Part shown: one piece after another, positions 8,625 through 41,571 of the stretch
Position numbering within the stretch: position 1 is the first letter of the stretch
Layout of the letters: each line of letters begins with the position of its first letter
Virus record (IMG/VR): IMGVR_UViG_3300006920_000066
Span: 1-49,257 of that record
Direction: 5' to 3' (one strand)
Source: a virus
DNA length: 49,257 nucleotides
Notes under the pieces: model-generated
Seen by the model: only the letters and a program-made list of their open reading frames with translations
What the model was told of the DNA's origin: nothing
Database searches by the model: none
Translations under genes and position numbers: made by a program

Positions 8625-8631
8625 AGGTTTT

Positions 8632-9227: not shown

Positions 9228-9249
9228 CTCAATTAATTTTATGTTGTTT

Positions 9250-9285: not shown

Positions 9286-9289
9286 CTTA

Positions 9290-10183: not shown

Positions 10184-10208
10184 AAAAAAGAACATAAAAA
10201 GAAAGGAT

Positions 10209-10811: not shown

Positions 10812-10829
10812 CCTATTAAATTTAAAAAC

Positions 10830-10889: not shown

Positions 10890-10893
10890 AAAA

Positions 10894-11055
10894 ATGGAAA
10901 ATAACATATTAATTAGGGCACAAATTACCATATCAAAAGAGCGTATAAAACAAATAGATAGCGCTATACTCGAGTTACAAATAGAGAAATTAGCATGGTT
11001 GAATGAAATAAAGGTAAACTTTGACAAATTAGAGAAAAAAAAGGGTAAAAACTGA
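10894..11055 (+). CDS. Small coiled-coil protein, 53 aa
   Basis: Heptad-like pattern of Ile/Leu through residues ~10-48 (ISKERIKQIDSAILELQIEK), ending with a lysine-rich tail. Likely a short coiled coil that dimerises or binds a partner. Closely follows the 19-aa peptide gene. Not recognised. Confidence 0.5.
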   Translation: MENNILIRAQITISKERIKQIDSAILELQIEKLAWLNEIKVNFDKLEKKKGKN

Positions 11056-11349
11056 AAAGAATGCTGTTCAAAACTACCTAAGGGAGAAACAATACATATA
11101 AAAGATAGATACTCCTACAATACAAGGGAAACGGTAACAGATAACAATGTATACAATACAAGTACAATAATAAGAATACAACGGAGTCCATATATAGCGC
11201 AAAATGAATACCACAGTACTATAAGACAATACACAACCATAAAGAGTATACACACCACCTATATAACACACAATACAATTTAATTAATAAGGGTATATGT
11301 AAGAATTTACACAAGAAAACAAATTTTCATTTTTCAAAAAATTACTAAT
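11056..11349. other. Gap rich in ACAATACA motifs, no gene
   Basis: ACAATACA occurs about five times between 11086 and 11280, with related strings (AATACAA, ACAATAA) between. No plus-strand frame is open; a reverse frame (11074-11271) has an unnatural Tyr/Cys/Val composition and I reject it. It may be an operator or binding cluster, or simple-sequence drift. Confidence 0.4.
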
Positions 11350-11547
11350 ATGACTAATACAGACAATAACAACTTAAACGGATACAAGGCATTCTATAAG
11401 GGCAAAACGCTTGACGTATATGCTAGTACTAGCATACAAGCTAGAGATAAGGCTGCAAGACTCTTTAAGGCAAGAAAAGCGTATGATGTAACGGTGGTAT
11501 TATGTGAACTAGCAGGAAGCCAAGTTACACATATAGCAGTTGATTAA
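11350..11547 (+). CDS. Conserved-type small phage protein, 65 aa
   Basis: Pattern known from many phages: YKAFYKGKTLDVYA, ST...ARDKAARLFKA, VTVVLCEL and THIAVD. Compact alpha/beta protein of unknown function, typically in early or accessory regions. Conservation of the aromatic and Gly-Lys positions makes it clearly a real gene. Confidence 0.7.
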   Translation: MTNTDNNNLNGYKAFYKGKTLDVYASTSIQARDKAARLFKARKAYDVTVVLCELAGSQVTHIAVD

Positions 11548-11603
11548 CTGACCGCATACAATAACCTAACAATCAATTAATTAACAACTAAATAAACAAT
11601 ACA

Positions 11604-11987
11604 ATGAATATAATCAAGCAAGTAATTGAGGAACTAACAAACATAAGTAGTAAGATACAAGAACTTCAGAGAGAAAACACTCTACTATCTAAGTCAGAGG
11701 CGCAGCTGACTAAGACGCTAAGATATAGAAATGCAGAGGTAAGTAGTCTTAATGCATTGATACAAGAAAGAAATGATAATATAGAAGTGCTAGAAGATGA
11801 CATAGATATATTAAGCGATAAGATAAGCAAAAGAGACGCCACAATTAGCAGACTGAAGCAAGAAAATGAAAGGTATGCATGGCGAATACTAGAACTATCA
11901 AACGACCGAAGTGCTCAAGATAGATTAATAAGTAGTCAAAACAAGGTATTAAATGCATACCGAGAATGTTCAAACAGAACAAAATAG
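11604..11987 (+). CDS. Coiled-coil protein, 127 aa
   Basis: Almost the whole protein is a long coiled coil with heptads of Ile/Leu/Val (for example LIQERNDNIEVLEDDIDILS), acidic and Ser-rich. No enzyme motif. Last plus-strand gene before a convergent intergenic region. It could be a host-interaction or scaffold-type protein; no family assigned. Confidence 0.6.
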   Translation: MNIIKQVIEELTNISSKIQELQRENTLLSKSEAQLTKTLRYRNAEVSSLNALIQERNDNIEVLEDDIDILSDKISKRDATISRLKQENERYAWRILELSNDRSAQDRLISSQNKVLNAYRECSNRTK

Positions 11988-11997
11988 GGCAATACCT

Positions 11998-12031
11998 GGC
12001 GATCACATCATAATAATACGGTGTGGTCGCC
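11998..12031 (+). terminator. Strong hairpin after 11987 gene
   Basis: GGCGATCACA (11998-12007) pairs with TGTGGTCGCC (12022-12031), ten base pairs including one G-U, loop of 14 bases. No T run follows, so it is an atypical terminator or a transcript-end stabiliser between convergent units. Confidence 0.45.
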
Positions 12032-12310
12032 ATATAACCCTATATAAAGACCTTATTACTCTTGTTTTGGGGTGTTGATACCTCAAGAAAAGATCTATCG
12101 CCCTTTACCCCATCCTAAAATTTTTTCTGATTCATTTCCAAAAAGGGTAGGGGTAAAAAAGGGGTGTGTGTTGAGGTTGTACTGCTATATTCAGTGTATT
12201 CAGAATATAATACTGCGTTCGCTTAATTAGTTGGAATTATATATTTTGGGGTGTATTTGCCAGGTATTCCGTTATATGGGAATTTGGGCTAATTATTGCG
12301 AGGGATGTAT
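12032..12310. other. Convergent intergenic gap, no gene
   Basis: Contains G- and C-runs with partial self-complementarity (CCCTTTACCCC near 12102 against GGGGTAAAAAAGGGG near 12151) but no credible frame. It is probably a 3'-end region shared by the opposing transcripts. Confidence 0.4.
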
Positions 12311-12343
12311 AAAAATGCCCCACCAAATATAATTCGGTAGGGC
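12311..12343 (-). terminator. Terminator of the reverse operon
   Basis: On the reverse strand GCCCTACC pairs with GGTGGGGC (plus-strand 12336-12343 and 12317-12324), one G-U, loop of 11, followed by a T run read from plus-strand A at 12311-12315. It lies 23 bases past the last reverse gene. Confidence 0.75.
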
Positions 12344-12365
12344 GTCTGAGATTTTTTGGGTTTGA

Positions 12366-12686
12366 TTATTGAATTTCAGTTTCGTATTTAGCTTTCAGTT
12401 CAGCTAGAATTCTGAGGTCGTAGGCTTTTGCCTTTTCTTCTCCCTGTTTCAGTAGGGCTATTCTTTGTTCGTACTGCTCATCTGTCTCTAATTCTTCGTA
12501 TGTTGCTGACACTTCTAGCATACTGGTATCCTCATCCCATCCTTCTTCTATTCCTATATACATATGGGTTGCTCCTAGCTTCAGTGCGTCATCTAGATCT
12601 TTCTTCATTTGAGATATTTCCACTCCACCATCCCAATCAAAGTATAGGCTTACGTCTTTTGTTCTTGTTTCTCTTTCTGTGTTCAT
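12366..12686 (-). CDS. Hypothetical acidic protein, 106 aa
   Basis: Last gene of the reverse operon. Opens with a polar segment, then SLYFDWDGGVEIS and a Met/Tyr/Gly stretch (THMYIGIEEGWDEDTS), followed by a C-terminal charged helix. Alpha/beta, very acidic. Not recognised. Fifteen bases separate it from the gene before it in the operon. Confidence 0.6.
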   Translation of the reverse strand: MNTERETRTKDVSLYFDWDGGVEISQMKKDLDDALKLGATHMYIGIEEGWDEDTSMLEVSATYEELETDEQYEQRIALLKQGEEKAKAYDLRILAELKAKYETEIQ

Positions 12687-26200: not shown

Positions 26201-27200
26201 GCTGGAGTTTGATTTGTTCCAAAGGACATTCGTTAGTAAAGACCTTACTGCTTCAGATGCTGAACTATTTAAAGCTAATTTGGCAAAAATAGACAAGGAG
26301 AGAGAGAATATACTGAAAAAAGGAGAGGCGAAAGAAGATAAGGACTTATACGACCTATTAGGAATCGATGTAGACGATAAGAGCAAGCAAGCTGTAGGTG
26401 ATGCATTTGCTTATGCTAAGAAGCAGTTGACAGACTTTGCCAATTTCAGAAAGCAAGTTGCGGATCAGAATGTGTCGGCAGCCAACAGAGAGGTTGCTAG
26501 TGCGGAGCAAGCATTGAATAGAGAGATAGCTGCTAGGAATGCAGGATTTGCCAATTCAGTAACTACTGCGGAGGCTGAACTTGCTGCAAAGAAGAAGATA
26601 CAAGCGCAAGCACTTAAAGAACAGAAAGCGGCACAGAAAGAACAACAGACTATTCAGAGTATTGAGCAGACAGTCAATTTAGCTACAGCAGCAAGTAAGA
26701 TATTCAGTCAAGTAGGTAATCCATTTATATCTATTCCACTTGTAGGGTTGATGTTTGGTGCGTATGCTGCGGCTAAGATCAGAGCGAACAACTTAACTAA
26801 AGAGTATGCTGGTGGTGCGTATGAAGAGTTTGATTATGGTGGTTCTCACAAGAGTGGCAATGATATGTCTCTAGGAATGACTAAAGATGGTAGACAGAGA
26901 AGAGTAGAGAGAGGTGAGAGTATGATGATATTACCTAAGTCTGCTACAAAGAAATACAAGAACGTAATGCCTAGTTTATTTAAGCAACTGAAATCTGGAA
27001 CTTATGATCCTATGGACATGGACATGAGCAGAGAGAATGACGTTAACTATTGGACTAACACTACTGAGGTAAACAATGATGGTCTTTTAGATTACTTTAA
27101 GTCTAGGGATCGCAGAGGTAGAAAAGGCAAGAATGTTATATACTCTAATGGAGTAGAAATAGTTACAAACGGAAACACTAAAACATACATACATGGCTAG
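23229..27200 (+). CDS. Tail tape measure protein, 1323 aa
   Basis: Sets tail length and is ejected with DNA. Residues ~265-445 carry the tape-measure N-terminal domain: AAELFRKVFTDTKKLDSLN, LSMEDQQQIFDSVAKSAAVL, MSKGTVSAEELRQQLGD and MARALNVTTKELADMIKKG, as in TIGR02675. Before it is a helical segment rich in Ala/Lys. Hydrophobic helices at ~500-560 probably insert into the host membrane, and a long charged coiled coil (~800-1090) follows. The C-terminus is Gly/Tyr-rich. By the usual ~1.5 angstrom per residue of helix, the tail would be near 200 nm, a rough estimate. Overlaps the next gene by 8 bases. Confidence 0.93.
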   Translation: MSKITAKDLYGGGQEIDDAIKQLKALKETYVEVKKDIVAKAGDLQSSFSKTNVVLGVQKEEFGKLLTKVAELTKQYELMESKIKGIDKSIDDYTKAQKAAAAATAKAAKEAREAAKANEAHESSISALKKSLKTASDDFDKLVRANNATGEAGKKLIKTMAKLKAEIDLTNKEKKKAANLARLQVTINNAEVGSYNQLAAQYDLLKIKLNAMGTARRKNTASGRDMEAQAIRIREQMKRLQEATGKNTLSVGNYSGSLRSVGASLRNLIAVYFSVTQAAELFRKVFTDTKKLDSLNLAFEKTIPNLQENAQVQQFLAETAEKYGQNILVLSKAYLRFNAASKSSTLSMEDQQQIFDSVAKSAAVLGLEAAKTDRVFNALEQIMSKGTVSAEELRQQLGDSLPGSVEIMARALNVTTKELADMIKKGEVLASDALPKFARELEKTYGIENVNKVDNLVAAQGRFETAIVNLVKELDGAGVFKDFFDALTAGAKAIKDNIGALVLLGKGLAIALPALLAYKLGVIATTRAQNAMALSLTELRIAMSLNPFGVALTVITAVAIGVYALNESMVESINVHDKLSESVKDLNIELGVEKKKTGQLFDALKDFNIPLERRQEIYLELLRMHPDILKNIDLEKSGLEDLENAQENVNAAIRRNIAARLQQEEVDKIQARRDKIIDKQVRFQVEGAEGLSALERAGVVNGRTPRTVDEEGLTTRELFAKRYNELLDKQLAKEDELLTKTKELYELYRDDPQVDRVFGDRGDSARDKILARLGLGIGGRGKDKPKVLSKEEIAADRARKAAADKAISDEFKRRTLRAQLIEDDETRELALLEIKNDKLIREFEQLKVSTVGIEEKYQREIQKIEEKYDKKAQGKLDKQRQLNIDFIEDRTEREREQLDLDTEVFGRHIDNKLLILAFYARGLKKIEDRLEKENLARIKKAEQDRRKLYESNLAEFDKKQQAERANNFAKSAKTPTPFETALSDNDLEKKRLEFDLFQRTFVSKDLTASDAELFKANLAKIDKERENILKKGEAKEDKDLYDLLGIDVDDKSKQAVGDAFAYAKKQLTDFANFRKQVADQNVSAANREVASAEQALNREIAARNAGFANSVTTAEAELAAKKKIQAQALKEQKAAQKEQQTIQSIEQTVNLATAASKIFSQVGNPFISIPLVGLMFGAYAAAKIRANNLTKEYAGGAYEEFDYGGSHKSGNDMSLGMTKDGRQRRVERGESMMILPKSATKKYKNVMPSLFKQLKSGTYDPMDMDMSRENDVNYWTNTTEVNNDGLLDYFKSRDRRGRKGKNVIYSNGVEIVTNGNTKTYIHG

Positions 27201-29262
27201 TCAGTTAAAGTTTAATGACATTACATATGAAACGCACCCTCTTTATGGCACTAAGACTATAAAGAAGGATGTGTCATTTAACTATGAGACTACATTGGAT
27301 AGTGTTGAGTTCTCTAATGGTGATGCTGACTTGATTATTAATGCAGATTATGAGACTGAGTTTATTCTGTGGGATGGAACAACTAGATACAAGTTCTATA
27401 AGAATGACTGCGTAATAAGAAGAGGTGACAGAGTAGTAACGGCAAAGGTTACTGTTATTGGAGACTACGCTGATGTAAAAGGGAAACTGAATACAGAGGT
27501 TAACATAGCCGACAACAAGTATATAAAGAGAGAACTAAACATTCCATATGCACCTATAGTGCAGTTTTATTGGGGTAACGGTATAATATCTTCAATTACT
27601 AATGAAGTGGTTTTTCAGTCTGACTCAAGTAGCGCATTGGAAGGAAATGGATGGTACGAACTCTTAGAAGGTTCATTGTTTGGGAATAAATGTTTCATTG
27701 TTCAACAGCTAGATGATCCTGTACCATTACATCCTGTTGGGGGCATATATATACCAATAGAATCTTTCGGTGGCACTAATCCTAAGGCAAGACTACAAAA
27801 TGAGGGAGGGTTACCATCCTCATATACTCTTGTTTGGGAAGAAGAAACTGGAAAATACTATATACAGTTTGTAACTGTAACCACTCTTTATAAGAGTGAC
27901 TTATCATTTGACAATAACCCACTGTTTAGTCAAAGTACGGCATATGGGGATGCTGTAGTTATGTCTAATGTAGACGATAGTACGGATAAGTTACTAATTT
28001 ATTCTTATGTAAATCCTAAGTTTAGGATAATTACAACAAAAGAGCAAGTTCCTGGATGGAGTACTATCGAGTTAAATGGTGACGATACATTGCCGAATAG
28101 TGCATACACACACGCTTTAATACATAGTAACGACCAACAGCGGGATTTATTAAAACAGAATCTTGGGTTTGACATTTCTAGTATTCCTAACGATATATGG
28201 TTTTTCTCAGATGACTTTGATGATGATAGAGGGGAGTTTGGACTGTGCAGTGACCAAAGCCCACTCTACGCAGGTAAGTACTTTGATAGACCAATAGGGG
28301 TAAATGGGTTACTACCTATAATGGATAATTATTGGAAATACGGAGGTCTTTTCTTTAATTTAAAGGATGAAGTAAAGGATATATTGCTTTTGGCACAAGG
28401 TGAGCAAACAGCATTGTTTTATGACTTCGAGGATGTATTATCAGATATGACAGGGCTGACAGTAAATTCAAGTTTTCTAAACGGATTAACTCCACTTAAA
28501 GATAATAGAAAATTATACTTAACTCCATTATCAAATATAAAAGTAAAGAACTACGATGAGCCAGCAACCAAGCAGATATTAACCATTGCTGATATGCTCC
28601 TATTTTTAGAGCGAGTGTATAACTGCTACTGGGATATTTATGGCGGAGAATTGAGGGTTGAACATTATTCATTTTTTGACAATGGCGGTAGCTATATGGG
28701 AGATAAGGTAACAACTGATCTTGTAAGCGAAACCAACTCTTGGAACGGCAGAAGTATATATGGAGACGAATTTACATTTGTCAAGGAAGAGAGCAAGAAG
28801 AATAAAATATGGAAATTCCAGAATAAACATAACGAATTGTACGAAGCTACTGTTATTACTGATAGTCCATACATAGAAGATGGAAATGACGATAAGGCAG
28901 TAGGGAAGATGAATATAGATTTAATCACTATATTGTTACAAGATGTGTCGAATGATGGGGTGTTAGTGATAGAGGTAGATCAAAACGACAATATTATCTT
29001 TGATGACAGATTGATCAATGGTGGACTTGCAATGACGAAAGCTATAGGAAAGTACCACTTATATGGAGAAGGTGGCTCTACGACGAACTATGGGGCTGCT
29101 AAGAGCAGGGCTAGACTGAAAGAAGAGACGATAACGCACAGTGTACCAATAAGTGACGTTCAAGGGCTGATACGTACTAGAGAGGGTAACGGTAAAATAG
29201 ATTCTGTAACTATCGACAATGATGGGGTTGTTGTAATAAAACTGAGACATGACGAATATTAA
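27193..29262 (+). CDS. Tail tip (distal tail / hub) protein, 689 aa
   Basis: Follows the tape measure, the standard place for the distal tail and hub proteins. The N-terminal ~110 residues are beta-rich with a Dit-like start (FNDITYETHPLYGTKTIKK). The middle contains long beta segments and an acidic SDDFDDDRGEF stretch; the C-terminal third resembles a hub/Tal-like domain with helices and strands. No lytic enzyme motif seen. Overlaps the next gene by 14 bases. Exact role among Dit/Tal proteins is inferred from gene order. Confidence 0.6.
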   Translation: MASQLKFNDITYETHPLYGTKTIKKDVSFNYETTLDSVEFSNGDADLIINADYETEFILWDGTTRYKFYKNDCVIRRGDRVVTAKVTVIGDYADVKGKLNTEVNIADNKYIKRELNIPYAPIVQFYWGNGIISSITNEVVFQSDSSSALEGNGWYELLEGSLFGNKCFIVQQLDDPVPLHPVGGIYIPIESFGGTNPKARLQNEGGLPSSYTLVWEEETGKYYIQFVTVTTLYKSDLSFDNNPLFSQSTAYGDAVVMSNVDDSTDKLLIYSYVNPKFRIITTKEQVPGWSTIELNGDDTLPNSAYTHALIHSNDQQRDLLKQNLGFDISSIPNDIWFFSDDFDDDRGEFGLCSDQSPLYAGKYFDRPIGVNGLLPIMDNYWKYGGLFFNLKDEVKDILLLAQGEQTALFYDFEDVLSDMTGLTVNSSFLNGLTPLKDNRKLYLTPLSNIKVKNYDEPATKQILTIADMLLFLERVYNCYWDIYGGELRVEHYSFFDNGGSYMGDKVTTDLVSETNSWNGRSIYGDEFTFVKEESKKNKIWKFQNKHNELYEATVITDSPYIEDGNDDKAVGKMNIDLITILLQDVSNDGVLVIEVDQNDNIIFDDRLINGGLAMTKAIGKYHLYGEGGSTTNYGAAKSRARLKEETITHSVPISDVQGLIRTREGNGKIDSVTIDNDGVVVIKLRHDEY

Positions 29263-30571
29263 TCCAATAGTTTTTCAAGAGGATAATACAGATGGGATAG
29301 GTTGTATTCCGACAGGAGTAAAGTTATTGCCGATAGTTAGTGATAAGCTATTTCCATTTCAATTGAACTGCAATGTAGATTCAGTAGGTAGCGGAGCAGT
29401 ATCGCCAATAGCAACACTTATTGATAGTGCAGATGTTAGTACTGATGTTTCTTCTATTCTGTCTGTGCGAGATGTTGAATTTCTTGACAAGTATTCTGGG
29501 TCAGAAGTTACAGATTACACGCATTCAGTTTTAGGAGATACTTATGGGTACGGATTCAGTATAGGAACTGAAGCAAATACAATCAGTCATGTAGAGTTGT
29601 TGATTCAAGGTGTGGTTGGTTACACTCCGAGTACATTTACGTTAGAGATATGGGATGCTAAAGTAGGTACTGTACAAAGAACTGTCACTAAGTCAGTTAT
29701 AATATCAAGCAGTAGTCCAACTAAAGTGGTATTTGAACTTCCTACTGCATACAATTCTGCTACAAATAAGTTTCTAAGAATAAGTAGTATTAATGGTTTT
29801 TTTAGTTTAGTAGGGAGCAGTAAGGCTCTTTATGAACAAGATAATGGTATAGGTGATGAAGTACGATATGTAAAGACAGTTATCCAAGGCGCAGATGTAT
29901 ATACTTGGGAAGATGCTGCAACAGACCAATCTCATGGAGCAGTTAAGTTATACGGTGCTTTTGATGGGAGACGATACAATAGTTTGAAATATGATGGATT
30001 GGACGTATTAAGTATTGCGGATGGAACATACAGATTAGAGATTGTATGGGATTCCCAATCGTGGAACAGTGAATGGTTTAGCGTAAAAGGCTACCTAGAT
30101 AACTTCGTGAAGATAACATATTGGCACAATGAGCCGATAGCATACAATGACAGAAGAAACCCTAGACATATAGATTTCGCTGATGGCTTTAAGTATTGGT
30201 GGTATATCAATAATGATGTAGGAGGGGAAGAGGTAGAGTATGTATTTAGAGAGAAACGAAATGATGGGTATAAGTATGTTCAGAGGGTGGACTCAGAAAT
30301 CTTCCATAGACACTTTACTGTACTTAGAAAGGAGGAATTTAAGGCATTCAGACTGATACCTATACACCACAACATAGAGGTTCTTACTCAAGATGGCGAT
30401 CTGATATACATAGATAAGATGACTATGAATAATGAGTGGAATGACAGAAATTACACTGAAGTAGAAATAGAGTATTATTCTGATACAGTATTCAGTACTA
30501 CTAATAAAACAATGGAATCGTCACTCAGAGGGGAGTATAGCGATGATTATTCAGCAGATTACAATATATAG
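29249..30571 (+). CDS. Baseplate or tail tip virion protein, 440 aa
   Basis: Large beta-rich protein with no signal peptide. Residues ~60-230 look like a jelly-roll/galactose-binding-like lectin module (SNxxSVxxxxLEIWDA... KFLRISSINGFF). The C-terminal half has conserved-looking YWHNEP...WWYIN and a compact alpha/beta end. It probably attaches the fibres to the tail tip. Family not named; the lectin-like part is tentative. Confidence 0.5.
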   Translation: MTNINPIVFQEDNTDGIGCIPTGVKLLPIVSDKLFPFQLNCNVDSVGSGAVSPIATLIDSADVSTDVSSILSVRDVEFLDKYSGSEVTDYTHSVLGDTYGYGFSIGTEANTISHVELLIQGVVGYTPSTFTLEIWDAKVGTVQRTVTKSVIISSSSPTKVVFELPTAYNSATNKFLRISSINGFFSLVGSSKALYEQDNGIGDEVRYVKTVIQGADVYTWEDAATDQSHGAVKLYGAFDGRRYNSLKYDGLDVLSIADGTYRLEIVWDSQSWNSEWFSVKGYLDNFVKITYWHNEPIAYNDRRNPRHIDFADGFKYWWYINNDVGGEEVEYVFREKRNDGYKYVQRVDSEIFHRHFTVLRKEEFKAFRLIPIHHNIEVLTQDGDLIYIDKMTMNNEWNDRNYTEVEIEYYSDTVFSTTNKTMESSLRGEYSDDYSADYNI

Positions 30572-30575
30572 AACT

Positions 30576-31316
30576 ATGTGGGAAACATTAAAAAGTACGG
30601 TTGGTAACACCATAAAGACGAATAACAACAACGAGATAACTGCCGAGCAGGATCAGTTGCTTAGAAAGGAGATTATAGACCAAGTAGGAACTTACGATTT
30701 CGGTGGTGTACTAACTACCCCTGCATCTGATTCACCTAGTGCGCTAGATAGGCAGAAGTATTGGTTTAATACGGCAGGAACTTGGGTTAATTTTGGGGGA
30801 GTTGTGACAGCAGTTGATGAAGTTGGGTTTCTATACAATCCCAGCGGAACATGGCTAAAAGTAGTATTACTTACTAATGATTCATCTCCATCAACTAAAG
30901 TCGCAGGGGCTTGCAATTTAGCGGTACTAGGTGAAGTTGGAGCGTCAATAAGTTACACTGACACATCTCTACTGACTATACCACTAAACATTACAGAAGG
31001 GAGTCCTTTAAATGTAGATTATGTACAGACTAATGCTGATGCAGAGAATATGCCAAGAGTATTGATTGCAGGGTACGTCACTATTAGTGGCTCTGTGACA
31101 ATAAATGCACTGGAGTTTCCTACTTCTGCTACACTGAGTATCATTGGGAGTAATGGCAACTCACTAACTAAGCTTTTTGACTTAAATAACCCAATGACGA
31201 TAGACTTTAGTTATGTTCAGAAAGTAGACCTAGAAGAAACCTTCCATATGGTATTAGAATTAAGCGATTCGCAAGACTTCTCAATTATAACGGCAAATTT
31301 AGGTATATTGGCGTAA
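30576..31316 (+). CDS. Fibre adaptor / tail protein, 246 aa
   Basis: I use the second Met (30576): its start, MWETLKSTVGNTIKTNNNNE, matches an adaptor motif seen in many Bacteroidota phage fibre modules (WxTLKxxVxxxIKTNxxxEIT...LL), which precedes a trimeric stalk. The remainder is small-residue beta structure with Asn/Thr/Ser, a domain of the fibre or baseplate surface. The C-terminal part may be a beta-sandwich. It starts 4 bases after the previous stop. Confidence 0.62.
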   Translation: MWETLKSTVGNTIKTNNNNEITAEQDQLLRKEIIDQVGTYDFGGVLTTPASDSPSALDRQKYWFNTAGTWVNFGGVVTAVDEVGFLYNPSGTWLKVVLLTNDSSPSTKVAGACNLAVLGEVGASISYTDTSLLTIPLNITEGSPLNVDYVQTNADAENMPRVLIAGYVTISGSVTINALEFPTSATLSIIGSNGNSLTKLFDLNNPMTIDFSYVQKVDLEETFHMVLELSDSQDFSIITANLGILA

Positions 31317-31360
31317 TATACTTCTTGGAAAACTTAACAATTAAAAATATAATACTGATT

Positions 31361-31999
31361 ATGGCACTTATTCCAACTATATTAGGAACTTTAAATGGAC
31401 AGAGCGTTTCAATTTACTACAGCGACGGCAATCCAAACGGAGTAATCACATCTCAGCCTAGACTGAAGGTTATATATGACTACACTAATGATGCACTTTA
31501 CACTTGTCCAGAGTCAGACATAGGAACTAATAGCAATTGGACTGCGGTAGGCTCTAATAGTAACTTCCAATACTCCTTATCGGACGGAGTTACCTTTGTT
31601 GAAGTGTGGGCTACAGGAGCAGGAGTAACAATAGTAGAGAATGCAGCCGCAGGAGAACTAACCGTAACAGTACCTTCTGGTGTTGATTTAATAGATGTCC
31701 AAATAAAAATGTCATCTACTGCGCTAGACGTAAATAATGACTACTATATATTACTAGATTATGCTGGAGATAGAGGATTTAATTCTGCGGTAGAGAACTT
31801 ACTGCTTCCTAATGTGGCTGTTGGTAGTGGAGTTACAGGTGCGATGAGTAGAAATAGCCCTGTCTTATACAGTACTGACGGATATGCTAATGTAGATGTT
31901 GGGATCAGTGCATTTGGTGGTGGGGATGGCAGTGACTTAGAGATAGCAATAAAAGATTTCTTAATAGCAAGTACTCAGCAGGTACACTTAAAGTTTTAG
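31361..31999 (+). CDS. Tail fibre-type protein, 212 aa
   Basis: I prefer the ATG at 31361 (MALIPTILGTLNGQSVSIYY) over a TTG start 12 codons upstream. The start is a short fibre-type N-terminus and not a signal peptide. The body is Asn/Ser/Gly/Thr-rich beta structure with FVEVWATGAGVTIV and later strands, like phage surface proteins. It could be the first distal fibre part or a capping protein. Family not recognised. Confidence 0.5.
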   Translation: MALIPTILGTLNGQSVSIYYSDGNPNGVITSQPRLKVIYDYTNDALYTCPESDIGTNSNWTAVGSNSNFQYSLSDGVTFVEVWATGAGVTIVENAAAGELTVTVPSGVDLIDVQIKMSSTALDVNNDYYILLDYAGDRGFNSAVENLLLPNVAVGSGVTGAMSRNSPVLYSTDGYANVDVGISAFGGGDGSDLEIAIKDFLIASTQQVHLKF

Positions 32000-32021: not shown

Positions 32022-32357
32022 ATGAGCATAGGAAAATATAACTTCAAGGACATTCCAAGAGGAGACACAATGCCAAGTACAGACTTTACTGTAAAAACAG
32101 TTACTCCAGACGCTCCTGTGGACTTAACAGGGGCTGCAATAAAAGTAGCGTTCAAGAGGGGCAAATTGCTGATTGCAAAGACAATAGGCAGTGGGATTGC
32201 AGTGTCCGATCCCACTACTGGAGTTTTTACGTTAGAGCCATTTGTGTTTAGTGTAGCAGGCTGTTATGATTACGATATAGAAATAACCTATTCCAATGGC
32301 GTTATTTCAACTATAGTGAACGGAGAAATTAATGTACTAAAAGATGTAAGCATATGA
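32022..32357 (+). CDS. BppU-like baseplate protein, 111 aa
   Basis: Follows the pattern of baseplate upper protein N-terminal domains: FKDIPRGDT, then DFTVKT, VDLTGAAIKVAFKR, a GSGIAVSDPTTGVFTL segment and a final strand (GCYDYDIEITYSNG). It is about the size of a single such domain and would attach receptor-binding proteins to the baseplate. Overlaps the next gene at ATGA. Confidence 0.62.
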   Translation: MSIGKYNFKDIPRGDTMPSTDFTVKTVTPDAPVDLTGAAIKVAFKRGKLLIAKTIGSGIAVSDPTTGVFTLEPFVFSVAGCYDYDIEITYSNGVISTIVNGEINVLKDVSI

Positions 32358-33667
32358 GTGAGTTAATAATAATAATAGAAGAGACAAGCCAAAACATGGA
32401 GGTTGTAGTTTCTGAAATAACAAGCTGCGTAAATGTAATTGTTGGAGAGGAATCTAATCCAGAAGAGACTATTGTTTTGGACAATAGAGTAATAGTTAAA
32501 CAAGCCTCCGATTTTGGAACTATAGACAGCACTAAGGAATACTTCTTGGATGGCGTTATTGACATGGGATCTACTTCCATTGAAGTGCCAGTAGGAGGAT
32601 TGTATATCAGTGGATACAATTTCGATGTTTCTGGTTTAGTGTCTACGGAAGACAACTATACTTTGTTCACTTCGCCAGTAGGAGGATCTGGAAATGTACT
32701 CCTAAGTGACTTTTATGTAGATGTGTCTGGAGCATCATCTCAAGTGTATGACTTATCTAGTAATACTGGATTTGGTGCTATCGAAGTCTCTAGAATAAAC
32801 TGGAACAACTGTACATCATTAGGTACTATCTTCAATTATAGACAAGGGTTAGAATCTGGTACTGGAAGGTTTGGAGGGACACCAGAACTCACGTTAGACG
32901 GTGAGTGGGTCGGTGGTTACTTCATAGACACTTGTATAGTCAGAGGGTTATCCGATGGTAATTATTCGCTTTATAAAGCTGGAGGTACATTTACAATGGC
33001 TTCTAGATTTAGAACTAATCAAAATGTAGATCTGAATGCTAGTGTGTCTTTTTTCGACTTTTCACCAGCGAATATTATAAATACCTCTACATTGCAATTG
33101 ACAGGTTGCATTATTACAAGAAACGGAGTTTTAGATTCCACTGACACCAATATAACTCCTAATATTGATGCTACTGACCCAAAGAGTATATGGAAAGATA
33201 ATATTGGTATACACAATACGTTTGTCGGAGGAACACTTACCGTTTCGTCAGAAGTCGCTACAGAAATAAGCACACAAGGAACTTTTGTTGATTTAGCTGG
33301 AACTTTTGATACATCGTCATTGTCCCATTTCGACAGTCCTGCTAATGGACAATTGAGACATTTAGGTGACACTCCAAGAGATTATAACGTATTTATTACT
33401 GGAACTTTTGATAGTGTAGCGAATGACGATATACGAGTGAAGATAGTAGTATGGGATGATTCTGCTAGTACTTTTGTAGATTATAAATCTGTGCAGAAGG
33501 TTGTCAATAATCTATCTGGAGGTAGAGATGTAGCGTTTTATTCTTTTCCTGCTAGGGTAGTATTAGATCTAAATGATTACGTTAAGATACAAGTGGCTAA
33601 CATGAGCAATCCTAATGACATAACAGCAGAACTCACTACTGAAATAAATATAGGGGGAAGGTCGTAA
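32354..33667 (+). CDS. Tail fibre / receptor-binding protein, 437 aa
   Basis: Acidic, Ile-rich N-terminus (SELIIIIEETSQNMEVV) probably attaches to the BppU-like protein, with which its gene overlaps. The centre (~60-280) is a beta-rich fibre with Gly, Asn and Ser repeats suggesting a beta-helix. The C-terminus (~320-437) resembles a TNF/C1q-like jelly roll (FVDYKSVQKVVNNLSGGRDV). No signal peptide, unlike the following genes. Function as host-recognition fibre is inferred. Confidence 0.55.
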   Translation: MSELIIIIEETSQNMEVVVSEITSCVNVIVGEESNPEETIVLDNRVIVKQASDFGTIDSTKEYFLDGVIDMGSTSIEVPVGGLYISGYNFDVSGLVSTEDNYTLFTSPVGGSGNVLLSDFYVDVSGASSQVYDLSSNTGFGAIEVSRINWNNCTSLGTIFNYRQGLESGTGRFGGTPELTLDGEWVGGYFIDTCIVRGLSDGNYSLYKAGGTFTMASRFRTNQNVDLNASVSFFDFSPANIINTSTLQLTGCIITRNGVLDSTDTNITPNIDATDPKSIWKDNIGIHNTFVGGTLTVSSEVATEISTQGTFVDLAGTFDTSSLSHFDSPANGQLRHLGDTPRDYNVFITGTFDSVANDDIRVKIVVWDDSASTFVDYKSVQKVVNNLSGGRDVAFYSFPARVVLDLNDYVKIQVANMSNPNDITAELTTEINIGGRS

Positions 33668-33686: not shown

Positions 33687-34871
33687 ATGAATAAGATATT
33701 GATATTGATGCTAGCAGTATTCACAACTAGTGTTTGCAGTTATGCTCAAACAGTAATCCCATTAGCGGGATTTCAAGGTCAGATCACGACCTCTCCTTCA
33801 GAATCCAATGATACAATAACAGCAACTTTTCTAATTACCGACTTCAGTAACAACTTTATTGGGACAGACTTGTCTGAGACAATGAATATAGTTGTATGGA
33901 AAAATTGCCAGAGGTATGAAGTTACCGAACTTGTATCATTGTTCGCCAATGAGATTACATTAAAACTACACAAAGGAGGGAACACTACGTTGAATACAGG
34001 AGTTTGTGCCATACTTCAAGAAACTGAAAGTTTAGTTTCTCACCTAATTAGTGGTATTACTGATAGTGACCGTCAGTGTATAGATTCTTACTATAGGAGT
34101 TTAGGAGGAGGGGGCGGTATGGATAGCCTATATAATGGAGATAGAGTTATCTCAAGGGTAATGGACATAGGCGATAATTTTGAAGCTACTACATTTAGAG
34201 AATGGTTGGATTGGCACTACATCGGCAACGCAACCAACCCAACATTGACTATGAATTATTTTTCACCTACTGTTGTAGAGGTGGGAACGTCAAATAATTA
34301 TACACTATCTGGAACATTGACAAATGTGTGCGACTACACTATTACAACGCAGTTGGTTGACGCTACGCCATGGAGTGGTATATCTTACAGTAAAGCTATA
34401 ACTTTTGCTCCAACAACAGCACAGTATAAGACCTACAGTGCCTCTGCTGCATGGAATAACACTGGTAGTATATGTGCGGCTGGAGGGTCTAGTAGCGGTA
34501 CGGCAACGGCTTCAAGGTCAGTTAGTAGTGTTCATCCTGTGTTATGGGGAATGAGTGCTACAGTCTACAATGGAGGTTCAGTTCCGTACAGTATTTGGTC
34601 TAAGAGGATTATTTCAGAAGGAAACCAAACTGGATTAACAATGACAGGAACAAATGAGTATATTTACATCTTAATACCTAAAAGCTGGAGTGACTACACT
34701 GTAAATAGCATTATAGACGCTAACGGATTTGATGTTACGCCATCATTCACTGCTTATGACGTAAGTGTTACAAGTACAGGCTTAGTTAATAACTGGACGC
34801 AAGATTATAAGCTATATAAATTAAATAATTTAACTACTGCATCTGGAGCAGCATACATATATAACAGATAA
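33687..34871 (+). CDS. Secreted fibre-like protein A, 394 aa, signal peptide
   Basis: N-terminus is a clear type I signal peptide: Lys, a Leu/Met/Val core, then SVCSYAQ with cleavage likely after Ala-20 or Gln-21. The mature part is beta-rich; the C-terminal ~240 residues are homologous to those of the next gene (shared GDR..., WLDW, SGTLTN, FAPT, HPVLWGMS, SGLVNNW, YKLYKLNNLTT landmarks). That shared block has the character of a fibre-tip domain. A signal peptide on a fibre-like protein is unexpected because tails assemble in the cytoplasm. Sec signal is secure, function inferred. Confidence 0.7.
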   Translation: MNKILILMLAVFTTSVCSYAQTVIPLAGFQGQITTSPSESNDTITATFLITDFSNNFIGTDLSETMNIVVWKNCQRYEVTELVSLFANEITLKLHKGGNTTLNTGVCAILQETESLVSHLISGITDSDRQCIDSYYRSLGGGGGMDSLYNGDRVISRVMDIGDNFEATTFREWLDWHYIGNATNPTLTMNYFSPTVVEVGTSNNYTLSGTLTNVCDYTITTQLVDATPWSGISYSKAITFAPTTAQYKTYSASAAWNNTGSICAAGGSSSGTATASRSVSSVHPVLWGMSATVYNGGSVPYSIWSKRIISEGNQTGLTMTGTNEYIYILIPKSWSDYTVNSIIDANGFDVTPSFTAYDVSVTSTGLVNNWTQDYKLYKLNNLTTASGAAYIYNR

Positions 34872-34872
34872 T

Positions 34873-36750
34873 ATGAAGAATACAATATTGATTTTTTTAG
34901 GATTATTTATTGCGCAGTTTGCTGCATCGCAAATTACAGTAAATACTAATTTTAAACCAAACATTGCGGCGCCTTTAGATTTGAGGTCTAAAATAAACAC
35001 ATTAGCAGATACTGCGACTATACCATTTGTGTATGATGGTAGTATAGCTTATGTAGTAAGTGAAGATGTTTTATATTTCAAAAATTCAGTTAAATGGATT
35101 GAAGTAGGAGGTGTAGCGGAGTGGGCTACTATAGTTGGTATACCTACAGATATAGCAGATGGCGATGATGATAGCCAACTGAGCCAAGCAGAAGTTAATG
35201 CCTTTGAAACCGACCCTATATATTCGGCATGGGATAAAGACTATAATGATTTGACTAACTTACCAATCATACCATCTAATACAAGTGAATTAGTTAATGA
35301 TAGTGGATTTATTACGTCACCGAATGATGCAGATTTTGATCCTACAAATGAATTACAAACATTAACAGATGTTGGTGCGACATTTACGTTATCTGATGGC
35401 GGTGGCTCAGTTACAAAAACAGTAGATACAGATACCCAATTGTCAGAGGCACAAGTAGATGCTTATGCTGGTAATAATGGCTATTTATTAACGGAGGTCG
35501 ATGGTAGCATTGACAATGAAATTCAAACATTGACAGATGTCGGGGCAACATTTACATTATCTGATGGTGGTGGAACAGTTACAAAAACAGTAGACACTAA
35601 TACTCAATTGACCGAAGCGCAAGTAGATGCTTTCGCAGATAACAATGGTTACCTGGAAACAGAAGTTGATGGAAGCATTAGTAACGAATTACAAACTTTA
35701 ACAGATGGCGGTGCAACATTTACGTTATCTGATGGGGGAGGTACTATAGTAAAAACCGTAGACACCGACACGCAACTAACTGAGGCACAAGTAGATGCAT
35801 TTGCAGATAATAATGGTTACTTAGAATCTGAGGTGGATGGGAGTGTTACGAATGAGTTACAAACGATCAGTAAAGTTGGCTCTACAGTTACATTGTCAGA
35901 TGGAGGCGGTTCGTATACAGATGCAGTAAATGACGCTGACTTTGATCCCACAAATGAAATTCAAGACACATCTAATATAGATGGACTACAAGAGTTCGTT
36001 GAGACATATGGAAGTGGTGGGGCTTTTGATGGCGATAGAGCCATATTGAGAGTGCCAGAGGTTGGAGCAGTGTTAGGCACTAGTACTGTTGATGGGTGGT
36101 TAGATTGGTGGTATGTTGAGAACCCTCAGACAACAATCTCATTTTCTGGAACAAGCGCAACCTATGAGATAGGAACAAGCCAATCAATTTCTTATAGTGG
36201 AACGGTAACTAACTTAGGCGGTTCTACATTGTCAAATGGAGAGGTAAAACGAAGCGGAGTAGTAGTTTCTACTTTTGGCTCGAATACTACCTTTTCACAT
36301 AGTGAGACATTTGCCCCTACAGCGGTAACGACTTACACTTTCCAAGCTAACCAAGATTGGACGAGAAATGGGGATAGTGGCAATACAACAAGTAGCTCAA
36401 GAACGGTGAGAGGGGTTTACCCAGTGATTTATGGGATGAGTTCAACGGACTATAATAGTAGTGGCGATCCGTATGCAGACTTGACAAAACTTGTAGCTAC
36501 AGAGGGTAATAAAACTGTGACAATAAGTGGAAGTAATGCTTATATATACTATTTAACTCCTACCGCTTGGTCTGATGACGATCTTAGTAGTATTTTAGAC
36601 CCCAATGGCTTTGAGATTAGATCGTCTTTCACAAAGACAACTATAAGTGTGAGTAGTAGTGGTTTGGTTAATAATTGGACTCACGACTACACTTTATACA
36701 AACTTAATAATTTAACAACTGCCAACGGTAGTTACCAATTTAAGGAATAA
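34873..36750 (+). CDS. Secreted fibre-like protein B, 625 aa, signal peptide
   Basis: Signal peptide (IFLGLFIAQFAASQ), then an ~80-residue head domain (NTLADTATIPFVYDG) shared with the 1407-aa protein, then 56-residue tandem repeats (three full copies at 35347, 35515 and 35683, a partial one from 35851) with the signature FTLSDGGG...TDTQLSEAQVDAYA, then a C-terminal tip domain shared with protein A. So it joins a head from C and a tip from A: a mosaic. The repeats are strongly divergent at synonymous sites, showing age. Confidence 0.75.
   Translation: MKNTILIFLGLFIAQFAASQITVNTNFKPNIAAPLDLRSKINTLADTATIPFVYDGSIAYVVSEDVLYFKNSVKWIEVGGVAEWATIVGIPTDIADGDDDSQLSQAEVNAFETDPIYSAWDKDYNDLTNLPIIPSNTSELVNDSGFITSPNDADFDPTNELQTLTDVGATFTLSDGGGSVTKTVDTDTQLSEAQVDAYAGNNGYLLTEVDGSIDNEIQTLTDVGATFTLSDGGGTVTKTVDTNTQLTEAQVDAFADNNGYLETEVDGSISNELQTLTDGGATFTLSDGGGTIVKTVDTDTQLTEAQVDAFADNNGYLESEVDGSVTNELQTISKVGSTVTLSDGGGSYTDAVNDADFDPTNEIQDTSNIDGLQEFVETYGSGGAFDGDRAILRVPEVGAVLGTSTVDGWLDWWYVENPQTTISFSGTSATYEIGTSQSISYSGTVTNLGGSTLSNGEVKRSGVVVSTFGSNTTFSHSETFAPTAVTTYTFQANQDWTRNGDSGNTTSSSRTVRGVYPVIYGMSSTDYNSSGDPYADLTKLVATEGNKTVTISGSNAYIYYLTPTAWSDDDLSSILDPNGFEIRSSFTKTTISVSSSGLVNNWTHDYTLYKLNNLTTANGSYQFKE
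35122..35265 (+). repeat. 144-bp near-identical block, copy 1
   Basis: Matches 36998-37141 with about two mismatches (offset 1876), within the IVGIPTDIADGDDD coding segment, while flanking sequence of the two genes is much more diverged. Confidence 0.85.
35347..35850 (+). repeat. Three tandem 168-bp repeats in gene B
   Basis: Exact 168-base (56-codon) steps at 35347, 35515, 35683; a fourth, partly diverged repeat starts at 35851. Each encodes NELQTL...VDGS-like sequence. Confidence 0.85.
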
Positions 36751-36751
36751 T

Positions 36752-39700
36752 ATGAGATATACATTATGTTTAGCATTAACTTTACTTGCAATTTCTGCTA
36801 GTAGTCAAATTACAATAAACACTAGCTTTGAAGCTAATATTTCTTCTCCGCTTGATTTAAGGGCAAAAATAAATACATTAGCGGATACTGCTACTATACC
36901 ATTTGTGTATGATGGTCATATAGCATATATTGTCAGTGAGGATGCCGTTTACTACAAAGGATCTGTTAAATGGGTAGAGATCGGAGGCTCTACGTTATGG
37001 GCTACTATAGTTGGTATACCTACAGATATAGCAGATGGCGATGATGATAGCCAACTGAGTCAAGCAGAAGTTAATGCCTTTGAAACCGACCCTATATATT
37101 CGGCATGGGATAAAGACTATAATGATTTGACTAACCTACCTATTATACCCACGAACAACAATCAATTAACTAATGGGGCTGGATATATTACATCGCCAAA
37201 TGATGCAGATTTCGACCCAAATAATGAAATCCAAGACACAAACGAAATAGTTGGGTTATTAGATTTTGTGCAAAACAATAGTATAGCGGATGGAATAGGA
37301 ACAGACACTAGTGGGAATTATCACATAAGTATAGATAATGATCTAGATTCAACTAACGAGTTACAGGGATTCGATGTCCATTCTTTTGGATTGGATAACA
37401 TCCTAAAATTATCATTAAGTGATAATACTACGACGCATTTTATTGATCTATCGAGTTTAGATGATAGCGGCACAGATGATCAGATGATAGATATAGTCAG
37501 TGATTGGCTAATGATTGAAAATGGCAATTCAGTAGATTTAGAACCCTATTTGGATAACACAGACACACAATTATCAGAGGCTCAAGTAGACGCTTATGCT
37601 GACAATAATGGATACCTGGAAACAGAAGTCGATGGTAGCATATCAAATGAATTACAGACATTAACAGATAACGGAGCGACATTTACTTTATCGAACGGTG
37701 GAGGTTCGGTGACTAAGACTGTTGATACAGACACACAATTGACAGAGGCACAAGTAGACGCTTTCGCTGACAACAATGGATACTTGGAAACGGAAGTTGA
37801 TGGTAGTATTACGAATGAGATTCAAACTATATCGAAAGTTGGGCAAACGGTCACGTTATCTAATAGTGGCGGTTCATTCACCGATGATGTAAACGACGCA
37901 GATTTCGATCCGACAAATGAAATTCAAGATACTACTAACATAGTCGGTTTATTAGAATTTGTTCAAAATAATGGTGGTTCGTCTGGCGGTAAATTCGTAG
38001 ATGGTACTGATCCATTAGACGCCGTTTATATGGATGGTTATGTAGGTATCGGAACGAATACACCCGATGAACGACTAGAGATAAGGGCAGAAACTATAGA
38101 TTCTAATCCATTTAAGATGTCGGGTGCTAGTAATGAAACAAGGGGTTTTTCTATCGGGTTTGAAGGTAGTACAGAAAACGATATAGTATTTAATAGAGTG
38201 TTAAGCGATGTACCAAATACATTTATGAGGGTTGAACGAAGTGCGATTGGAGACATTTCGTTTCCAAGTGGAAATATTGGAATCGGAACGAACACACCTA
38301 GCGCAACTTTAGATGTAGTAGGTGATCTAGAAGTTAACGGGAAAGCAGCTATCGGTACAAGCGGATTAAGTCCATACGCTGATCTAATCATAGGGAACGG
38401 ATATATAGATTTTGCAAATACATCAAAGAGTGTATTTATCGGGGAGGATGCAGGAGCAAATAATATACAAGCAAGTAATATAGGTGTCGGTTTTGAGGCT
38501 TTGATGAACGGTACGGCTGGAACGTCTACGGCGATAGGATATAGGGCGGGTAAAAACAACACAGGTGGTAGTCTATTAGCAATTGGTCACTTAGCTGGTC
38601 AGTCTAATACAGGGATCAATAATACATTTATTGGTTATTTGGCTGGATTAGGTAATACAAGCGGACGGTTTAATGTGTTTATCGGTTCATCGGCGGGGGT
38701 ATCTAATACCACTGGCGAGAAAAGTGTAATAATTGGATATGATGCGGGTGATGGAGACACAGACATAGATAGGTCGGTGGTAATTGGGAATGAAGCGGGA
38801 TCAGTTTCGGTCGGTGACTTTAGTACGGTAGTTGGTTCTTTTGCGGGGAAAACGAGTGGTATAGGTAACTCTTGTTTTGGGTATAACTCAGGGGCGATTG
38901 CTGCTGGTGATTATGGGGTATATCTTGGCTTTAATGCGGGTTCGTTAGAAACAGGCTCTAACAAATTATACATAGATAATAGTAATACGACGACGCCTTT
39001 AATTTATGGCGATTTTGCAACGGATGAATTGACGGTAAACGGAGAATTGCACGTATCAGACCGAATAGGCGGTGCAGCTACAAAGTCAGCAGCGTTTGAC
39101 GCTAACGGTCAGTTAGTTGAAGTAGATTTGACTACGGCTGATGGAAAGTTTGTAGATGGTACTGATCCATTAGACGCAGTTTATTCTGATGGGAATGTTG
39201 GGATCGGGAATACTAATCCGCAAGCAAAGTTACACATAGATGGTCAGACGATATTAACAAACACAAATGGAACAGACGGCGCAAGTTTATTTTTAGGAAG
39301 GAGTGGAAACGTATCTCAAGCGGCAGAAATTAACTTTGTCGAAAATAGTAGTGCCACTTTTTCCTATGGTTTTAGATTTAGGTTGGACGGCATTGGGAAT
39401 AAGTTATACTTAGAATCTAACAACGCAACAACTGGTTCGCCATCATTATTCGACTTAATGGCATTTAATAGGGCAGGCGGGGTAGAAGTTGAGAACTCAT
39501 TAGCGATGAATGGCGTTTTTACACAAGAATTTCCAAAAGATAGCGGGTTAGCTAATACTAATTTCGGGATAGACAATTTGGCGGCAATAACTAGCGGCAA
39601 TTATAATTTTTCGGCAGGACAAGGTAATTTTAAAAGTTCGACAAGTCTGAATTATACGTTTTCTAATGGTTTAGATAACTTTAAGAATATGACTACTCCA

Positions 39701-40975
39701 TCGTCTTATCTTTTTGTAAATGGTCTCCAAAACTTTCCATCTGCGACGGATGCAGATTATTCTTTTATCAATGGGTTTAGGAACGGCTATGTTGGGACGG
39801 CTACTCTCAACTATGCTACAATCAGCGGTCACAGTAACTATTACAACACTAATTCAGGTATTTACGGCAGTACTGCGTTTGGGCTAAACAATGCATATAG
39901 TAACACTGGTAACTCCTACTATGAGTTTTATAACGGTGCTTACAATGCACAAGATGCCACATCTGTTGGGTATAATTTTATGAGTGGCTATAGGAACGCA
40001 GCGGATGCCAGTTCTATTACATATTCATTTTTGGCTGGAGATAGAAATTTATCGACAACGACTGCGGACATGACGCATAACTTTATGGTCGGAAGAAATA
40101 ACGCAGAAAAAGCATTAGATTCAGATTATAGTTTTGCGGTAGGTTATTTTAATGCGGCTAACTCCACAACTGCTGATTTAGATTACACTTTTTTAAGCGG
40201 TTACCAGAACGCTTATGTCGGTGGGAATATGGAATCTGCGTTCATTCATGGGTTTAGGAACGGATATAATTGCACGGGGTCACTAAAACGATCAATTATG
40301 ATAGGCTATGAAAATGGATATGGAGAACTAGCCAATTTGCACAATTCGATATTGTTAGGTTATCGTCAAGGATATACAGATGGAACAGATGCCGCAGGAA
40401 ATTATAAATTAGCGATCGGGATGTATCAAGACCAACCATTAATTTTTGGTGATTTTGTTACTGAGGAAGTGGAGATTACTGGGTCGTTGGCAATCTCAGA
40501 TCGGATTGTTGGCGCAGCTACAAAAAATGCTGCGTTCGATGCTGATGGTCATATCGTAGAAACAGATTTAATCGCTACTGGTTACGGTGGTGCTGAAACT
40601 GGATTGAATACTATATCATCTACGGCGGCGACACAAGTTTTATTTAATGCGGTATTCGGATCAGATATTAATACTAACACAGATATAACAACTGGCGAAG
40701 ATATCGAGGTTACTAATGCTGGGATTTGGGAGGTGTCTTTTTCTGGTAATATTGGTAGCTATACGGCCGACGAAATATTGTCTGTTAATATTTTAATAAA
40801 TGGGACACTAGATAGGTCTGTAAAAATAAAAGCGGCGGACGTAAATTCAGCCATTGCCTATACGTATCATTTGAACCTATCGGCGAACGATGCTATATCT
40901 TTAGAGTTAGACAGTACAACTGACGCTGACTATACATACAATGATGTAAGGCTCATTTTAAATAGAATCAATTAA
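36752..40975 (+). CDS. Giant secreted fibre-like protein C, 1407 aa
   Basis: Signal peptide (LCLALTLLAISASSQ), head domain shared with protein B, one or two 56-residue repeats, then a YadA-head/LbR-like beta-roll with AIGYxAG-type ~14-16-residue repeats (about 580-740), including LYIDNSNTTTPLIYGDF typical of secreted Bacteroidota proteins. A second repeat series (~930-1220, YxFxxGxxN) follows, and a C1q/TNF-like jelly roll closes the protein (~1285-1407). Two internal blocks are duplicated (KFVDGTDPLDAVY and SDRIxGAATK). No S74-type endosialidase chaperone motif is seen. Likely a host-recognition or surface protein; a host surface gene captured by phage is inferred. Confidence 0.75.
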   Translation: MRYTLCLALTLLAISASSQITINTSFEANISSPLDLRAKINTLADTATIPFVYDGHIAYIVSEDAVYYKGSVKWVEIGGSTLWATIVGIPTDIADGDDDSQLSQAEVNAFETDPIYSAWDKDYNDLTNLPIIPTNNNQLTNGAGYITSPNDADFDPNNEIQDTNEIVGLLDFVQNNSIADGIGTDTSGNYHISIDNDLDSTNELQGFDVHSFGLDNILKLSLSDNTTTHFIDLSSLDDSGTDDQMIDIVSDWLMIENGNSVDLEPYLDNTDTQLSEAQVDAYADNNGYLETEVDGSISNELQTLTDNGATFTLSNGGGSVTKTVDTDTQLTEAQVDAFADNNGYLETEVDGSITNEIQTISKVGQTVTLSNSGGSFTDDVNDADFDPTNEIQDTTNIVGLLEFVQNNGGSSGGKFVDGTDPLDAVYMDGYVGIGTNTPDERLEIRAETIDSNPFKMSGASNETRGFSIGFEGSTENDIVFNRVLSDVPNTFMRVERSAIGDISFPSGNIGIGTNTPSATLDVVGDLEVNGKAAIGTSGLSPYADLIIGNGYIDFANTSKSVFIGEDAGANNIQASNIGVGFEALMNGTAGTSTAIGYRAGKNNTGGSLLAIGHLAGQSNTGINNTFIGYLAGLGNTSGRFNVFIGSSAGVSNTTGEKSVIIGYDAGDGDTDIDRSVVIGNEAGSVSVGDFSTVVGSFAGKTSGIGNSCFGYNSGAIAAGDYGVYLGFNAGSLETGSNKLYIDNSNTTTPLIYGDFATDELTVNGELHVSDRIGGAATKSAAFDANGQLVEVDLTTADGKFVDGTDPLDAVYSDGNVGIGNTNPQAKLHIDGQTILTNTNGTDGASLFLGRSGNVSQAAEINFVENSSATFSYGFRFRLDGIGNKLYLESNNATTGSPSLFDLMAFNRAGGVEVENSLAMNGVFTQEFPKDSGLANTNFGIDNLAAITSGNYNFSAGQGNFKSSTSLNYTFSNGLDNFKNMTTPSSYLFVNGLQNFPSATDADYSFINGFRNGYVGTATLNYATISGHSNYYNTNSGIYGSTAFGLNNAYSNTGNSYYEFYNGAYNAQDATSVGYNFMSGYRNAADASSITYSFLAGDRNLSTTTADMTHNFMVGRNNAEKALDSDYSFAVGYFNAANSTTADLDYTFLSGYQNAYVGGNMESAFIHGFRNGYNCTGSLKRSIMIGYENGYGELANLHNSILLGYRQGYTDGTDAAGNYKLAIGMYQDQPLIFGDFVTEEVEITGSLAISDRIVGAATKNAAFDADGHIVETDLIATGYGGAETGLNTISSTAATQVLFNAVFGSDINTNTDITTGEDIEVTNAGIWEVSFSGNIGSYTADEILSVNILINGTLDRSVKIKAADVNSAIAYTYHLNLSANDAISLELDSTTDADYTYNDVRLILNRIN
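36998..37141 (+). repeat. 144-bp near-identical block, copy 2
   Basis: Partner of 35122-35265, suggesting recent exchange or conversion between the two genes. Confidence 0.85.
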
Positions 40976-40994
40976 TCAATAAATATTTTAACAA

Positions 40995-41333
40995 ATGAAA
41001 GTAATTTTAATAATTTTTTTAGCGGCGTTTAGTTTTACATCTACGGCTCAGTATGCGATATCGATCGTAGGGTCTGGCGATGAAAGTAAAGTTAGAATAG
41101 TTGAATATGACGACGACATAACACGCACATCGTTATATAAACCGATGGCAGAAACAGACGCAGTATTTTTGAAAGATAGCTTGACAATTGTCTACGACAG
41201 AATTAACACAAGTTTAGATGAAAACTTAATTCACATTGACGATATGATTATTCAGTTACAAGAAGAATTGAAAAGTTTTAAAAAAATGAAAAGGAAGGTA
41301 GAACGCAGAATAATAATTAGAGATCAACAATAA
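40995..41333 (+). CDS. Small secreted coiled-coil protein, 112 aa
   Basis: Signal peptide (KVILIIFLAAFSFTSTAQ, no lipobox Cys), a short mature beta part, then a C-terminal coiled coil (residues ~65-105, LIHIDDMIIQLQEELKSF) with a basic end. It lies between the fibre genes and the holin. Options: accessory to the secreted fibres, or a periplasmic lysis (spanin-like) component. No family named. Confidence 0.55.
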   Translation: MKVILIIFLAAFSFTSTAQYAISIVGSGDESKVRIVEYDDDITRTSLYKPMAETDAVFLKDSLTIVYDRINTSLDENLIHIDDMIIQLQEELKSFKKMKRKVERRIIIRDQQ

Positions 41334-41361: not shown

Positions 41362-41571
41362 ATGACAAAATCAGCAATTAGACACATCCTTACTGCGGTA
41401 GGTACTGTGTTGACTTTATTTGGATTAGACAACTTCGTGGATATTTTTGAGTTCGCCAATCAAAATCTAGACGGTATTTGGGCAGCAGTCGAGACTATTG
41501 CAGGAGCAGCTATCACTATCTACGGTTTTACAAAGAACGGAGGTAGACACGCTATCGAAGATGCTAAATAA
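41362..41571 (+). CDS. Holin-like protein, 69 aa
   Basis: Two hydrophobic helices: residues ~8-25 (ILTAVGTVLTLFGLDNFV) and ~40-58 (IWAAVETIAGAAITIYGF), a short basic/acidic tail and a positively charged N-terminus, the usual plan of small holins. The gene ends the virion module. It would make inner-membrane lesions so the lysozyme can reach its substrate. Assigned by topology and pattern, not by enzymatic test. Confidence 0.7.
   Translation: MTKSAIRHILTAVGTVLTLFGLDNFVDIFEFANQNLDGIWAAVETIAGAAITIYGFTKNGGRHAIEDAK

Follow-up and report, generated by a model that had tools for sequence, protein, structure and literature searches.

A cassette of putative tail fibre genes with predicted Q-rule signal peptides in a probable Bacteroidota phage

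Tail fibres set the host range of tailed phages and, in the textbook view, are assembled in the cytoplasm. The receptor-binding protein pIII of filamentous phages (Inoviridae) is made with a Sec signal peptide, has a membrane anchor and is incorporated during extrusion of the particle. Glutamine at the +1 position of the mature protein (the "Q-rule") is a trait characteristic of Bacteroidota signal peptidase I substrates, approximately 71% on average, and this +1 glutamine is cyclised to pyroglutamate (PMC5837995, PMC10653852). Lyase proteins of the phages Ingeline and Nekkels have been mentioned as signal-peptide carriers (Bartlau et al. 2021; PMC8776804). None of the open-access journal papers searched describes the export of tail fibres as a way of assembling them.

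The window, i.e. the whole stretch of DNA that was analysed, comprises 49,257 nucleotides of the IMG/VR virus record IMGVR_UViG_3300006920_000066, and its genes are named here by the position of their first nucleotide. It is contained, in reversed orientation and at 99.996% identity, within a longer virus record (G001). It belongs to a marine-type phage that very probably infects a Bacteroidota bacterium, since its portal and tail proteins are akin to those of phages infecting Flavobacterium, Bacteroides, Parabacteroides, Croceibacter and Elizabethkingia. A 161-aa ORF at 6756-7241 has a lipobox-like N-terminus (MRKLFITIFLASWFVINMSSC) and is a candidate phage lipoprotein. We hold with moderate confidence that the region 33687-41333 is an exported-fibre cassette, the products of which would undergo Sec export, cleavage and late joining to tails.

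An earlier note on this DNA had described four consecutive genes in the fibre region with type I signal peptides. This description holds, as 33687, 34873, 36752 and 40995 are all ORFs with ATG starts and all pass a rule-based scorer (basic n-region, uncharged h-core, small residues at -3/-1, and a bonus for Q at +1). Among the window ORFs of at least 90 aa on both strands, only these four pass, each with a basic n-region, a hydrophobic core and small residues at -3/-1, and 0/7,511 internal control segments do so. The predicted cleavage sites are MNKILILMLAVFTTSVCSYA^QTV (33687), MKNTILIFLGLFIAQFAAS^QIT (34873), MRYTLCLALTLLAISASS^QIT (36752) and MKVILIIFLAAFSFTSTA^QYA (40995), with Q at +1 of the predicted cut in 4/4. 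Since the scorer gives a bonus for this residue, Q was judged from the sequences themselves; without the bonus the signal peptides of the window still pass, and the best site is at the Q or one residue before it. The earlier description had not taken up the Q-rule, by which the host machinery can be recognised: the four genes have the sequence features of Bacteroidota signal peptidase I (Q-rule) substrates, with cleavage predicted. The lipoprotein (signal peptidase II) route was rejected because the +1 residue is Q and never Cys. Identity as type IX secretion cargo was also rejected, as no C-terminal sorting domain was found in the four genes with Pfam and NCBIfam.

The cassette lies after the tape measure gene (23229), the tail genes 27193 and 29249 and the adaptor stub 30543 (from 27193 onwards, all genes and domains described are on the plus strand). 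This position, together with similarity to tail-fibre families, supports the assignment of the tagged (signal peptide-bearing) genes as putative fibres. The untagged tail protein 27193 (27193..29262) is conserved and serves as a synteny anchor, and the untagged tail protein 29249 (29249..30571) is conserved in related Bacteroidota siphophages. The untagged stub (30543..31316) is homologous to the N-terminal ~100 aa of the relatives' single large untagged fibre, with 28-35% identity to the fibres of P2559S, PDS1, AS73P1 and TCUEAP2. A fifth signal peptide, considered for the next listed ORF (31325-31999, TTG start), was rejected; as its relative on a related contig (G002; 76% identical) starts at an internal ATG without a signal (MTLISTILGTNDGQS...), the ATG at 31361 is the likely real start of this untagged fibre-region protein (31361..31999). 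It is followed by a small untagged baseplate-type protein (32022..32357) with a weak BppU_N-like match (Pfam E=2.1e-4, below its cut-off; phrog_1084 E=2e-9) and by an untagged fibre-like protein (32354..33667) matching a Pseudoalteromonas phage protein (56% identity over 89%), for which the scorer agrees with the earlier report of a fibre without signal. Adjoining the cassette downstream is a small membrane protein (41362..41571), 79% identical to its G002 relative and without a family match, which is putatively holin-like from its position and hydrophobicity.

The first tagged gene, 33687 (33687..34871; 394 aa), has its predicted signal peptide at 33687-33746 (score 6.64) and its mature Q at 33747. 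It is 35% identical to 34873 over 355 aa, with its C-terminal part common to both, and its relative in G002 carries a diverged signal peptide; its AlphaFold model (pLDDT 38) is too low for use. In 34873 (34873..36750; 625 aa) the predicted signal peptide (34873-34929) is followed by an attachment-type domain (34930-35112) and by 168-bp tandem repeats (35347-35864) that are confined to this gene. The same N-terminal domain is found in 36752 (36752..40975; 1407 aa; predicted signal peptide 36752-36805), the central fibre-type repeats of which resemble tail fibres of other phages, with matches annotated as tail fibre or structural. The earlier picture of three large, repeat-rich proteins fits 36752 with its fibre-type repeats but not 33687, which is neither large nor repeat-rich. 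The small protein 40995 (40995..41333; 112 aa; predicted signal peptide 40995-41048) has a mature part modelled as three beta strands and one 59-residue helix; a fold search with this model gave merely coiled-coil-like matches (E > 0.05). Its relative in G002 also has a signal peptide and the same position before the holin-like gene. PDB sequence searches gave no matches, and no relatives of the N-terminal domains turned up in hosts or prophages when bacterial genomes were scanned. Positions 34762-35375 and 36644-37254 form a 78% identical DNA repeat that runs from the end of a fibre gene into the beginning of the following one, signal peptide included, which suggests a duplication across the gene junction. 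At the far end of the longer record (60001-68946 of G001), a fibre paralogue, of which 868 aa are present, is cut off where the record stops.

Three pairs of tagged genes were compared: 33687 and its G002 relative, 34873 and 36752, and 40995 and its G002 relative. The signal regions are 32-35% identical in amino acid sequence in all three pairs, and the adjoining mature regions are 77%, 80% and 32% identical, respectively. A Q-type signal is nevertheless kept in 6/6 members. When the observed base changes were placed at random in a neutral simulation, the Q-type signal survived in 0.27-0.29% of runs per pair, an approximate value from a simple scheme (single step, 2:1 transition weight). Because the diverged pairs stay Q-type, which is rare under simulated neutral drift, the signals are maintained by selection: the sequence drifts and the function stays.

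A short motif common to 34873 and Cellulophaga phages led to the fibre/spike blocks of the latter. The layout with 3-5 Q-type fibre genes in a row is shared by other contigs and by Cellulophaga phages of three families. Tagged blocks are found in phi10:1 (Assiduviridae; gp091-095), phi18:3 (Pachyviridae; gp085-087), phi19:1 (Assiduviridae; gp101-104) and Ingeline_1 (Duneviridae; gp31-34, four genes), and also in phi19:3 (Pachyviridae) and Nekkels_1 (Assiduviridae). Throughout these blocks the +1 residue is Q, except for K in phi19:1 gp104 and its phi19:3 counterpart. The block of Ingeline_1 (within 6001-12409) sits between the integrase on its upstream side and the gene for the head maturation protease, and this placement suggests that it moves as a cassette. 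Contig G003 carries five consecutive tagged genes after a tape-measure-like gene and two tail-like genes; it also encodes, on the reverse complement at 10638-11312, a 224-aa head-region protein with a Q-type signal peptide. In G002 the block is reshuffled: a body like that of 36752 is fused to the 33687 signal and N-terminus, and the tagged 40995 relative and then the holin-like gene follow. The fused, signal peptide-bearing protein (1140 aa) matches two PHROG tail-fibre families (E 1e-21 and 3e-13). Two small Q-type signal proteins lie outside the fibre block of G002 (7220-7729 and 9799-10149).

Eleven signal peptide-bearing proteins from two families (phi10:1 gp091-094, phi18:3 gp085-087 and phi19:1 gp101-104) are recorded as virion proteins by GenBank notes of "experimental MS/MS proteomics analysis", a record in which co-purifying envelope material is possible. 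The earlier note had offered three readings without ranking them. Maturation of the fibres in the periplasm followed by late joining fits best, as the MS/MS notes list tagged fibres of the same layout among the virion proteins of three Cellulophaga phages in culture; the decoy and host-gene capture readings are weaker. Selection on the signals speaks well for export, and the virion records of equivalents in other phages speak well for virion membership of such fibres. An alternative is that the exported proteins act mainly on the host envelope, e.g. by hiding receptors, which would prevent superinfection or the loss of progeny to debris, or by degrading surface polysaccharide at release, and are not true virion parts. 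Such a role is compatible with genuine signal peptides, with the pectate lyase annotation of several tagged Cellulophaga phage proteins, which fits secreted enzymes, and with the Q-rule proteins of P. gingivalis phages that are thought to modify the outer membrane (PMC10367356). It is unlikely, however, given the eleven virion records and the gene content of phi10:1 and phi19:1, where nearly all fibre/spike candidates downstream of the tail genes are tagged and few untagged ones would be left for receptor binding. A decoy, adhesin or exclusion function, as proposed earlier, could be an extra role, but as a sole role it leaves the virion recovery and the lack of other fibre candidates unexplained. 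A secreted role additional to the virion role is thus possible, especially for lyase spikes, and a purely secreted role is less likely.

The tag and the fibre bodies can be found apart. The phi4:1 spikes gp051 and gp052, virion proteins by MS/MS note, have no signal, yet share 42-49% identity over ~650 aa with spikes of phi19:3 and Ingeline that are tagged. The phi12:1 proteins gp59/60 also have, at an untagged N-terminus, a region similar to the post-signal domain of 34873 and 36752 (hhalign probability 75%, E 2.6e-5). Similar repeats occur without a signal in Tenacibaculum PTm1 and Flavobacterium immuto phages, so the fibre repeats do not bring the signal along. P2559S, PDS1, AS73P1 and TCUEAP2 have one large untagged fibre after the tail genes, whereas the window has the stub 30543 and tagged fibre bodies. 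Judged by these comparisons, the tag is a detachable add-on to fibre bodies. Among 43 contigs found via the 27193 tail protein, which include the window's own longer record and several that end too early to judge fibres, tagged fibres occur in that record and G002 only. The export trait is patchy, gained or lost together with the cassette, and since most relatives of this lineage have untagged fibres, export is not required for the window's tail type. The signals could instead have arrived with captured host surface-protein genes and be tolerated, with enough fibre in the cytoplasm for virions and export that is inefficient or incidental. Signals of host type and similar fibre domains in both tagged and untagged form agree with this reading, which is made improbable by the strong selection that keeps the signals in three pairs, by bodies that resemble phage fibres and by recurrence of the tag across unrelated phage families. 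Wholesale capture of host surface genes, also raised earlier, is weak, because the bodies and attachment domains match phage fibres without a signal. That the hydrophobic N-terminus stays uncleaved as a membrane or virion anchor is very improbable: such a helix could enter the membrane, but a canonical -3/-1 site and Q at +1 are kept in the four genes as well as in the diverged pairs, and the phi4:1 spikes attach without a hydrophobic N-terminus.

In the preferred reading, export with late joining, the distal tail fibres would be made as Sec precursors and moved across the inner membrane by the host translocon, where signal peptidase I would cut off the signal. Host glutaminyl cyclase would probably cyclise the new N-terminal glutamine. 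The tail, together with the untagged adaptors 29249, 30543 and 32022, would be built in the cytoplasm and the mature fibres would fold in the periplasm, to join tails late, either in the periplasm or at lysis, as holin and endolysin open the envelope. We infer that the fibres are actually exported, that their glutamine is cyclised, and where and when they join the tails. A speculation is that the cut permits attachment, as the mature N-terminus, the attachment end in typical fibres, starts within a few residues of the cleavage site. A broader and more tentative proposal, to which we give slightly less than even chances, is that some Bacteroidota tailed phages assemble in two compartments, with tails in the cytoplasm and receptor-binding fibres in the periplasm after Sec and signal peptidase I. 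Cleavage would then free the attachment end so that joining occurs only after export, and the tag-plus-fibre cassette would be exchanged between unrelated families.

The evidence suggests that phages with such tagged fibres pass them across the envelope of the cell and only then attach them to the virion. That fibres recorded in virions carry a recurring, selected export signal points to another fibre assembly route and offers a candidate role for Q-rule proteins in phages. This route predicts pyroglutamate at fibre N-termini and implies that fibres could be shared in the periplasm between co-infecting phages.

Known systems each share part of this arrangement. Filamentous phage pIII is like the proposed fibres in that it binds receptors as part of the virion and is synthesised with a Sec signal peptide; unlike them it is membrane-anchored, is incorporated during extrusion and does not belong to a lytic tailed phage. 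The Q-rule proteins of P. gingivalis "Nixviridae" phages are likewise phage genes with a host Q-rule export signal, but they have no known function and were read as envelope modifiers without being identified as fibres (PMC10367356). B40-8 / B124-14 / P2559-like siphophages of Bacteroidota have the portal, tape-measure and tail backbone in common with the window, whereas their distal fibre is a single large untagged gene fused to the adaptor region. The fibre bodies of the Cellulophaga phage blocks differ from those of the window phage, and only a short motif is in common; in both, however, consecutive fibre/spike genes each open with a Q-type signal peptide.
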